Notes under the pieces: model-generated | Database searches by the model: none | What the model saw: only the letters and a program-made list of their open reading frames with translations | Told to the model about the DNA's origin: nothing | Position numbers and translations under genes: made by a program | In this document: positions 12,499 to 49,504 of the stretch, piece by piece | Layout: the number at the start of each line of letters is the position of its first letter | Position numbering within the stretch: position 1 is the stretch's first letter | Assembly (NCBI GenBank): GCA_023144895.1 | Contig: JAGLEV010000073.1 | Span: forward strand, 1-58,989 | Direction: 5' to 3' | DNA from: Thiotrichaceae bacterium | GTDB lineage: Bacteria; Pseudomonadota; Gammaproteobacteria; Thiotrichales; Thiotrichaceae | DNA length: 58,989 nucleotides

Positions 12499-12780
12499 TT
12501 ACTCACAGTCACAACCGACGGTAGCAACGCTTAGTTTTTGCTTGTTAAGTAAACCTGTTTGATTTTGGCTTAACTCATTACGGTTTGCTCTGATCGTTAC
12601 ATCTGCATCAACATCAGCAGCAATAACCGCTAAGTTCATGTCTTGCTCATTTAACAAACCTGTTTGTATTTGAGTCGTAATATTTGCATTCGCCGTGATA
12701 TCAAAATCATTAGCTGCCATTGCAGAAGAAGAAACCGCTAGAACTAAAGAAGCAAGTGCAATTTTTGAAAACATGTTCAT
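12499..12780 (-). CDS. Small secreted protein with two curlin-like repeats (copy 3)
   Basis: A 93-residue near-duplicate of the gene at 5465: same signal peptide ('ALASLVLAVSSSAMA'), the same first repeat ('QIQTGLLNEQDMNLAVI') and the same VGCDCE end. Differences concentrate in the second unit, where 'GNSLLQTQTG' is 'RNELSQNQTG'. The gene runs opposite to nrdA and nrdB. Leader and 3' hairpins are the same as in copy 1, so all three genes are probably regulated together. The function is unknown. Confidence 0.77.
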   Translation of the reverse strand: MNMFSKIALASLVLAVSSSAMAANDFDITANANITTQIQTGLLNEQDMNLAVIAADVDADVTIRANRNELSQNQTGLLNKQKLSVATVGCDCE

Positions 12781-14484: not shown

Positions 14485-14593
14485 TGCATCTGGCTATTGT
14501 TTATTAGCGTATTTAATCTATCTTAGAGAGCGAGGCTTCTTATAGGTCTTGGTTTGAGCAATTTAATTAAAAAAGTAAACTTAGGAATAAATA

Positions 14594-14932
14594 ATGATTA
14601 CACGTAAAAATCTTCTAGCATTAGCAGTATCAACTTCACTAGCAGCAACATTGGTTGCTTGTGGCGATGATGCAAAGACTGAAATTGATAAAGCTGCTGC
14701 TACTGAAACAACAGCAACAGTTGATAAGTCAAAGATGGAAGGCAAATGTGGTGAAGGCAAATGCGGTGGTGACAAGGCTAAAAACAAGGAAGGCAAGTGT
14801 GGTGGCGACAAGGCTAAAGCTAAAGATAAGGAAGGCAAATGTGGTGAAGGAAAGTGTGGTGGTGACAAGGCTAAAGCTAAAGACAAGGAAGGCAAATGTG
14901 GTGAAGGAAAGTGTGGTGGCGATAAGAGTTAA
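14594..14932 (+). CDS. EGKCG-repeat lipoprotein, HvfA-like
   Basis: A 112-residue predicted lipoprotein. Residues 1-22 form a signal with lipobox L-V-A-C (Cys22), followed by a Thr/Ala-rich linker and, from about residue 49, a low-complexity tail with seven EGKCG pentapeptides in blocks such as 'EGKCGEGKCGGDKAK'. EGKCG repeats characterise HvfA-type precursors, whose cysteines are modified to copper-binding groups by a DUF692 enzyme (HvfB) with a DUF2063 partner (HvfC). Neither partner is adjacent, and a lipid anchor differs from the usual cleaved signal. It may bind copper or other thiophilic metals at the membrane; modification by distant enzymes is possible. Several overlapping frames are open only because the DNA is repetitive. 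Confidence 0.85.
   Translation: MITRKNLLALAVSTSLAATLVACGDDAKTEIDKAAATETTATVDKSKMEGKCGEGKCGGDKAKNKEGKCGGDKAKAKDKEGKCGEGKCGGDKAKAKDKEGKCGEGKCGGDKS
14775..14930 (+). repeat. In-gene tandem repeats encoding EGKCG blocks
   Basis: Near-identical units of about 57-60 bp (AAGGCTAAAGCTAAAG... followed by GGAAAGTGTGGTGG) repeat through the 3' half of the lipoprotein gene, with a shorter degenerate unit first. The unit length is a multiple of three, so changes in copy number keep the frame. Confidence 0.75.
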
Positions 14933-14957
14933 GTAATACCTTAACTTCATCTTGTTA

Positions 14958-14984
14958 GGTGGGCTAGCTTCAAGCTAACCCACC
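14958..14984. terminator. Hairpin between convergent lipoprotein and dioxygenase genes
   Basis: Arms GGTGGG-C-TAGC and GCTA-A-CCCACC form a strong stem with one mismatch between the two convergent stop codons. No U-run follows on either strand, so termination strength is uncertain. Confidence 0.5.
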
Positions 14985-14992
14985 CTCTAGTG

Positions 14993-15874
14993 TTAGTTCT
15001 CTATCCTGATTCGATCAAAATACCTCCCTCTATAGAGTAAGCGTTTCTTAGCACTCTCTTCCCAGTCTTCAAAATTAGAACGGCGATGTAATGAGTTATT
15101 ACAGAAAACACCTTCACCTGCCTGTAATTTGTGACTCACAATATAAGGGCTACCTTCTGACCAAAGCGCATTCAACATATTAACCGCTTCTTGTGTGTCA
15201 GGATCATCTCTCCAAATAATATGACGCTTACGGGCAGAGTATCGCATATGTAACTGTTGTTGTTCATCCAGACTAAAGACGGCAGCACTAATTTCCGCTC
15301 TAATGACTTCACCATTTAATTCATTGTCAGGAATAGTAAATGCCTCTGGATGTTCCAATGCACGAATGCAATCAGGATTGTGGTCACGTAATAAAATATA
15401 AGCAATTTCACTATCCATAATATAACTGATACCGCCATTTTTTGCTGGACGATTGCAGTGTAGAAGAATACCTCTAATTTGCTTGTTATCATCATTATAA
15501 TAACCATCACTATGCCAGCTTAGCTGTCGTGTGGAATAAGGGATGTAGTTATGTTGGTTTGTATGTGTGCAGACTTCAATCGAGGTTAATTTATCCTCGT
15601 CTGCACATAAATTATGATCTAGATTTTTCAAACCCAATTGCAATCCTAAAGCATGAATGGTTGCTTTATTATTAAATGCATTTTGTACTCGATAAAAACA
15701 AAAATTCAAACGGTCAATATTGTATTGAATCTGTGCCTGTTCTTTATCAGAAAGATGATGGGGGTCTGTAATATCAACAAAAAGACCAATAAAATCAATA
15801 GGATAATGAGATAATTTTTGGCTACGCCATTGCTGGTAGGCAGTATCGTTATCCAATGAAAAAGGGGTAGTCAT
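14993..15874 (-). CDS. TauD/TfdA-like Fe(II)/2-oxoglutarate dioxygenase
   Basis: A 293-residue member of the TauD/clavaminate-synthase superfamily. The H-x-D iron ligands are seen in 'QLSWHSDGYYND' and the distal His in 'CNNSLHRRSNF', with a downstream Arg for 2-oxoglutarate in 'KKRLLYRGRYF'. The substrate cannot be told: taurine and alkyl-sulfonate enzymes are relatives, but so are many hydroxylases. It stands alone, convergent with the EGKCG lipoprotein and divergent from the dsr cluster, whose upstream region shares its promoter side. Sequence is complete with an ATG start, although no clear ribosome site is visible. Confidence 0.83.
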   Translation of the reverse strand: MTTPFSLDNDTAYQQWRSQKLSHYPIDFIGLFVDITDPHHLSDKEQAQIQYNIDRLNFCFYRVQNAFNNKATIHALGLQLGLKNLDHNLCADEDKLTSIEVCTHTNQHNYIPYSTRQLSWHSDGYYNDDNKQIRGILLHCNRPAKNGGISYIMDSEIAYILLRDHNPDCIRALEHPEAFTIPDNELNGEVIRAEISAAVFSLDEQQQLHMRYSARKRHIIWRDDPDTQEAVNMLNALWSEGSPYIVSHKLQAGEGVFCNNSLHRRSNFEDWEESAKKRLLYRGRYFDRIRIEN

Positions 15875-48730: not shown

Positions 48731-49504
48731 TTATTTTGTCTTCATGTAACGCTGTAATGCAGAACGTGTATCAGGTGTTACCACACCATTGATTGGCCCA
48801 CGGTAATAGCCTTTCGCTTTAAGTTTACGTTGCAATGCATGAACATTGACACGGTTGCCTGGTCTTGTTGCTGGTCTAGCGGGTCTTGTTGTTCTATGAA
48901 CAGGTGCTGGAGCCCCTTTACGACAAGAATACTTGTGTGTGTGGTTACGTGTACCAAACTTATGTGTATGTGTTACTGACTTAGTACAACGTGGAATGGC
49001 GGGATGACGATGCGTCCAACGATTGGCTGTCGGTCTTTTTTGTACAGGGCGACGATATGCTGGACGCTTAACCGCTGGACGTGTTGCACCTTTACAGCTG
49101 TACTTATGGTTATGGTGTTTAGCACCACTTTTATGAACGTGATCCACAGACTTAGTACAACGAGGTACTGCTGGGTGTCGATGTTTATTCGGATTTCTTT
49201 TTACTACTTTTACATGCTTAGGTCTTGATACATGTCTAGGTGGAGGCGCAGGTGCGGGAGTACGAGTAACAGGTCTAGTAACAACGACAGGAGCAGGTTC
49301 AGCCTGTTGTTGCTGTGAGGATCCAGCTTGTTGAGAAGAAGATCCTGCAACCTGTTGGGAAGATGAACCAGCAACTTGCTGAGAAGAACCAGCAACTTGT
49401 GATGGTGATGTTGAACCACCATTAACTTGTTGTTGGCTACAACCCGTTACAAACATGCCAGCGACAACAGCAGCAGCAAGTGATAGTCTAGGATTGGTGT
49501 ACAT
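48731..49504 (-). CDS. Lipoprotein with His/Cys-rich repeats and peptidoglycan-binding domain
   Basis: A 257-residue predicted lipoprotein: signal with lipobox V-T-G-C (Cys22), a Ser/Gln tract with 'QVAGSSQ' repeats, a Pro/Thr linker, two 36-residue units and a C-terminal PG_binding_1 domain ('HALQRKLKAKGYYRGPINGV'). The units follow H-R-H-P-A-x-P-R-C-T-K-S-V, then H-x-H-K and H-x-H-K-Y-S-C, each with about seven His and two Cys, suggesting a metal-binding module. ATG 49504 has GAGGA ten bases upstream; the ATG 15 bases earlier does not. The gene stands alone with its own terminator. Confidence 0.75.
   Translation of the reverse strand: MYTNPRLSLAAAVVAGMFVTGCSQQQVNGGSTSPSQVAGSSQQVAGSSSQQVAGSSSQQAGSSQQQQAEPAPVVVTRPVTRTPAPAPPPRHVSRPKHVKVVKRNPNKHRHPAVPRCTKSVDHVHKSGAKHHNHKYSCKGATRPAVKRPAYRRPVQKRPTANRWTHRHPAIPRCTKSVTHTHKFGTRNHTHKYSCRKGAPAPVHRTTRPARPATRPGNRVNVHALQRKLKAKGYYRGPINGVVTPDTRSALQRYMKTK

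Follow-up and report, generated by a model that had tools for sequence, protein, structure and literature searches.

The EGKCG-repeat protein encoded in the window, the 58,989-nucleotide stretch of Thiotrichaceae DNA analysed here, is very probably a lipid-anchored HvfA-type (oxazolin/captophorin) RiPP that would be modified in trans by HvfBC enzymes before its export and anchoring, and would serve as an envelope copper trap within an ECF stress regulon. Pairs of MNIO and DUF2063 proteins turn EGKCG cysteines into copper-binding 5-thiooxazoles, the assignment that now replaces oxazolone/thioamide for HvfA (PMC12668002, PMC13419390). Whether precursors unlinked to MNIO genes are modified by remotely encoded enzymes, or not at all, was not settled in a published survey of such clusters (PMC12452194). 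The present genome offers a clean natural case for modification in trans: it has a single EGKCG precursor and a single EGKCG-type maturase operon, the latter precursor-less, and these two places alone carry a common promoter dyad.

A lipoprotein-type precursor with seven EGKCG motifs

The features of the locus are given in Table 1. The original prediction of an HvfA-type precursor with seven EGKCG repeats was borne out: its coordinates proved exact, the motifs were counted (starting at residues 49, 54, 66, 80, 85, 99 and 104), and NF050137, the NCBIfam model of the HvfA family, matched in three stretches with 63.7 bits against a cut-off of 19.5. The cysteines of the protein are the lipobox Cys23 and the seven of the motifs. 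In 20,000 residue shuffles of the mature part EGKCG arose on average 0.009 times and at most once. The seven units differ from one another at synonymous sites alone (GGC/GGA, AAA/AAG, TGT/TGC), which argues that the peptide has been kept and that this is not merely a DNA repeat.

Table 1. Positions in the window of the precursor gene, its parts and its flanking elements
Feature	Position	Strand	Basis
Gene for lipoprotein-type EGKCG (HvfA-family) precursor, 112 aa	14594..14932	+	ORF; NF050137 above cut-off; sole NF050137 locus in the genome
Signal peptide MITRKNLLALAVSTSLAATLVA, presumed also to be the RiPP leader	14594..14659	+	Likeness to signal peptides of genus-mates' secreted EGKCG precursors; leader role presumed from the HvfA signal peptide (PMC13419390)
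Lipobox Cys23 (LVA|C), presumed lipidation site, Gly at +2	14660..14662	+	Sequence; lipidation presumed
Seven EGKCG motifs (7 Cys), presumed 5-thiooxazole sites	14738..14917	+	Tandem 57-bp (19-aa) repeat
Putative ECF-type promoter TGCATCT-N16-CGTA (TGCATCTGGCTATTGTTTATTAGCGTA), starting 109 nt before the start codon	14485..14511	+	One of two genome matches; one in the window vs 0.06 expected by chance
Likely ribosome-binding site AGGA	14583..14586	+	Sequence
Strong hairpin between convergent precursor and tauD genes, probable terminator	14957..14984	.	Fold z = -3.5; 0/200 shuffles as stable
TauD-family dioxygenase, convergent neighbour, not proposed as pathway member	14993..15874	-	PF02668; synteny in four genomes

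The score against the HvfA equivalog model NF050188 (67.7 bits) fell under the 95-bit cut-off, and the precursor is not classed as a strict HvfA. This miss carries little weight, because the secreted precursor that lies immediately upstream of hvfX in a genus-mate also falls short of 95 bits (64.5 bits). A Pfam search of the precursor gave zero matches, the bufferin domain DUF2282 included. In lacking DUF2282 the protein differs from the bufferins (DUF2282 or 6/12-Cys), of which a genuine DUF2282 precursor is encoded on contig C36. When the genome was searched with NF050137 at a threshold relaxed to E = 10 and with stops read through, the window gene alone was matched.

The sequence LVAC at residues 20-23 reads as a match to the lipobox consensus, in agreement with the lipobox that had been claimed for the precursor, and its cysteine is retained in six genes from four genomes. 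By the +2 rule of Escherichia coli, a glycine after the lipobox cysteine would route a lipoprotein to the outer membrane. The signal peptide was up to 64% identical to those of the secreted EGKCG precursors of genus-mates, compared with at most 32% for control signal peptides, and a leader of the form [ST]RK-LL-LA is common to the lipidated and secreted EGKCG forms (best matches of the lipidated forms, 64%). The signal peptide of HvfA is its leader, and HvfBC favours HvfA with that peptide still attached (PMC13419390). The similar leaders of the two forms therefore suggest that the same enzyme pair acts on both.

Upstream of the gene lies nrdB; downstream come a TauD-family gene in convergent orientation and then dsrA, the nrd and dsr names having been assigned by reading translations. 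Inspection of these window neighbours revealed no adjoining DUF692 or DUF2063 gene, as the original prediction had stated. The hairpin before tauD suggests that the precursor would be transcribed as a single-gene unit. The proximity of nrdB was dropped as meaningful, since nrdB of relatives has no EGKCG neighbour. A 93-residue secreted protein with CDC close to its C-terminus is encoded between nrdA and nrdB (12499-12780, minus strand); it holds two alike stretches, TQIQTGLLNEQ and SQNQTGLLNKQ, and has no Pfam or NCBIfam match. Elsewhere in the window, a short 24-bp tandem repeat occurs at 49329-49388 (2.5 copies, 77% matches).

A maturase operon without its own precursor

The genome is a draft of 2.64 Mb in 103 contigs, listed as 100% complete, and contains two MNIO and DUF2063 pairs, on contigs C36 and C51. 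The C51 operon has the order hvfX-hvfB-hvfC-msrP-msrQ, and its products exceeded the NCBIfam equivalog cut-offs for HvfX (213 vs 80 bits), HvfB (430 vs 360) and HvfC (274 vs 142). Seven HvfBs used for comparison were 55-78% identical to its HvfB and aligned with it ungapped in every conserved block; the closest solved relative of this HvfB is 3BWW. Reading of the sequence and relaxed family searches found no precursor adjoining this operon and no degenerate precursor between its promoter and hvfX.

The description of the precursor as an orphan was thus correct locally, where no enzyme is adjacent, and failed genome-wide, where the precursor is almost certainly no true orphan. The search for DUF692 and DUF2063 genes that had been proposed as a check recovered both, in a dedicated HvfXBC operon from which a precursor is missing. 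Of the two alternatives originally offered, this precursor-less operon and the promoter dyad that it shares with the window gene favour the first, a membrane-bound form whose modifying enzymes are encoded at a distance.

The second intact MNIO and DUF2063 pair could in principle modify the precursor in place of HvfBC. We regard this as highly unlikely, because the C36 genes form a complete bufferin operon that includes a DUF2282 precursor, a BufB-type MNIO (323 against the BufB cut-off of 310, and under the HvfB cut-off) and a DUF2063 protein. Moreover, the leader of the C36 bufferin is only 32% identical to that of the window precursor, and the TGCATCY-N16-CGTA promoter is absent from the C36 operon. 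HvfBC of C51 remains the preferred pair.

A putative promoter common to the two loci

The 27-nt sequence TGCATCY-N16-CGTA has exactly two matches in the 2.64-Mb genome, one ahead of the precursor (Table 1) and one at C51:23778-23804, 71 nt before hvfX. The dyad, shared by the regions upstream of EGKCG genes in genus-mates, was first spotted by eye across all upstream sequences, those of this genome included, and was then re-derived without this genome: TGCATC-N17-CGTA was the single 6+4 dyad (spacers of 10-25) common to the upstream regions of four relatives, and 0/300 shuffled sets yielded any. The four regions were picked once the motif was known; the test, though fair to the present genome, was therefore not a blind one. 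Matches clearly exceeded those of a reversed control in Thiothrix-like genomes (for example 9 vs 0, 10 vs 1 and 12 vs 0).

Among relatives, genes for secreted EGKCG precursors, hvfB, bufA (the DUF2282 precursor) and an ECF sigma gene with an RskA-type gene behind it all have the dyad upstream. The same holds for DsbC-like and cyclophilin-like (PPIase) genes of the genus-mate G003 and for an MsrA-like gene of G024. The motif is lineage-bound rather than universal: in other families it is missing from most EGKCG genes, and it is missing too from the lipoprotein EGKCG gene at the conserved locus of the genus-mate G004 (C112).

ECF sigma/RskA-type pairs lie behind TGCATCC-N16-CGTA in Thiothrix-like genomes (L226:1037-1579, minus strand; L228:1287-1832, plus strand), and such a pair is found within about 1.2 kb of hvfB in G059. 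The sigma factor of the Thiothrix-like pairs probably governs the regulon, its own gene included. Contig C91 of the present genome encodes a homologous pair, SigK-like and RskA-like, in which the RskA match is under the Pfam cut-off; its sigma gene is preceded only by a version of the motif with two mismatches, TGAGTCT-N16-CGTA. The NrsF anti-sigma factor was sought in the genome and is absent.

Conservation of the locus and co-occurrence with HvfB

Lipoprotein EGKCG genes convergent with tauD beside dsrA, as in the window, were found in the genus-mates G003 (two in tandem), G004 (with one further, unlinked copy) and G005, so that the locus is conserved in four genomes, the window's included. 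The TauD-family dioxygenase is kept beside dsrA in the genus (window, L083, L072 and L074), and tauD homologues are widespread in Thiotrichaceae, also in members without an EGKCG gene.

The conserved position raises the possibility that the dsr linkage is functional and that the main role of the metal peptide lies outside copper detoxification, for instance in thiol or sulfur redox, and the motif-bearing genes for DsbC, PPIase and MsrA in relatives would fit such a role. This is quite unlikely, however, as the precursor is convergent with tauD, is separated from it by the hairpin and has its own putative promoter, while tauD is retained in Thiotrichaceae devoid of EGKCG genes. The characterised EGKCG RiPPs bind copper (PMC12668002), and copper binding is the function that we favour.

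All three genus-mates also hold secreted EGKCG paralogues. That of G003 lies immediately upstream of hvfX-B-C-msrP-msrQ, and those of G004 and G005 lie at contig ends facing hvfX contig ends, where adjacency is presumed. On C51 of the window genome the promoter stands immediately before hvfX with no precursor between them, as if a cis precursor ahead of hvfX had been lost. In G062 some 157 kb separates the EGKCG gene from hvfB, and the promoter motif is present at each of the two.

HvfB scored above its cut-off in 29/29 relatives with EGKCG genes and in 16/115 without (144 genomes; p = 3e-19, uncorrected for phylogeny). This bears on the second alternative of the original prediction, an unmodified cysteine-rich lipoprotein that binds metal by free thiols, on which hvfBC would no longer act. 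No enzyme adjoins the precursor, and the status of stand-alone precursors is uncertain in the literature (PMC12452194), yet no EGKCG gene occurred without HvfB among the 144 relatives. Furthermore, the precursor is the sole EGKCG gene available to an intact hvfBC operon whose rare promoter it carries, and its leader resembles those of cis-encoded substrates. An unmodified protein is therefore unlikely, and modification by HvfBC is preferred.

Proposed pathway

In the proposed pathway, an ECF sigma factor, most likely that of the C91 SigK-like/RskA-like pair, would transcribe the precursor gene as well as the distant hvfX-hvfB-hvfC-msrP-msrQ operon, using promoters of one type. The promoter sequence is common to both loci; its activity and the identity of its sigma factor are predicted. 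The signal peptide would then be the leader to which cytoplasmic HvfC binds, and the EGKCG cysteines would be oxidised to 5-thiooxazoles by HvfB. The enzymes and a matching leader are present and the genome has no other EGKCG substrate; the modification is proposed by analogy with the characterised HvfBC, FonBC and NedBC. Modification before export agrees with the enzymes being cytoplasmic. Export by Sec, lipidation of Cys23 and cleavage by signal peptidase II would tether the peptide within the envelope, most likely at the outer membrane, the +2 residue not being Asp. There the thiooxazoles may bind Cu(I) and buffer envelope copper, alongside repair of oxidised periplasmic methionines by MsrPQ.

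For the genus as a whole, a dispersed pathway is on balance the better bet: one HvfXBC maturase would serve several unlinked precursors, secreted or lipid-anchored, united by a SigK/RskA-like ECF regulon in place of an operon, and the window genome would have lost its secreted cis precursor, leaving the maturase to serve the remote lipoprotein alone. Such an arrangement suggests a route by which one enzyme set makes both lipid-anchored and soluble copper peptides, and the signature TGCATCY-N16-CGTA could be used to find split pathways.

Comparison with known systems

In its predicted anchoring the window precursor resembles NedA of Neisseria dentiae, which has an SPII lipobox and EGKCG repeats and is paired with an MNIO and a DUF2063-type partner; expressed in E. 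coli with its cognate nedBC, NedA was lipidated and lost 4 Da per motif, the NedABC product being a lipidated, -12 Da peptide (PMC12636315). NedA has three motifs, whereas the window precursor has seven in 19-aa repeats and its enzymes are on another contig. The oxazolin system of Haemophilus influenzae shares the EGKCG core, the HvfX-B-C set and a signal peptide, whose leader role is presumed for the window precursor, but HvfA has a Sec, non-lipoprotein signal peptide and its gene lies inside the hvf operon (PMC13419390). Fontiphorin (FonA/FonBC, a captophorin) has seven sites in EGKCG-type repeats and an MNIO enzyme, FonBC being MNIO and PME1 enzymes, and its product is the 5-thiooxazole presumed here; it differs in its compact gene cluster, and the accessible part of the report mentions no lipobox for FonA (PMC12668002).

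Stand-alone Buf_EGKCG precursors are likewise unlinked to MNIO genes, with enzymes elsewhere in the genome, and some surveyed EGKCG clusters hold Oxidored_molyb and ferric-reductase genes, comparable to msrPQ on C51 (PMC12452194). That survey left trans modification open, whereas here the common promoter and the missing cis precursor point to it. Control of MNIO operons and Msr genes by ECF sigma factors is already known (PMC3511200, PMC2893595). In the Caulobacter SigF regulon a YedY/MsrP gene and several MNIO operons at separate loci are governed by an ECF sigma factor that acts through a -35/N16/-10 motif; however, that motif is GTAACC-N16-CGAA, the precursors are DUF2282 bufferins and the anti-sigma factor is of the DUF1109/NrsF type, in contrast to TGCATCY-N16-CGTA and an RskA-like anti-sigma factor without NrsF in the present case (PMC3511200).

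Each element is thus already known by itself: lipidated EGKCG peptides, precursors that stand alone, EGKCG clusters with msrPQ-like genes (PMC12452194), and ECF control. A literature search for a link between RskA, copper and MNIO found neighbouring cases alone. What appears to be new is a putative TGCATCY-N16-CGTA/RskA-like regulon that joins a lipoprotein precursor to a distant hvf operon lacking one; no description of such a regulon was found in the open papers searched.

Other precursor loci in Thiothrix-like genomes

In three Thiothrix-like genomes (G062, G044 and G006; loci L229, L230 and L231) an EGKCG precursor is divergent from nrdA. The hvfBC genes are immediately downstream of this precursor in G006 and far off in G044 and G062, which by gene order is a second apparent instance of separation of precursor and enzymes. 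G062 also encodes a lipoprotein with the lipobox LTAC and six GSCGAKK/GSCGTKK repeats (L227:2910-3188, plus strand). This protein has no NCBIfam or Pfam match; its gene is divergent from hvfBC, carries its own TGCATCT-N16-CGTA promoter sequence and may encode an undescribed Cys-repeat substrate of HvfBC.
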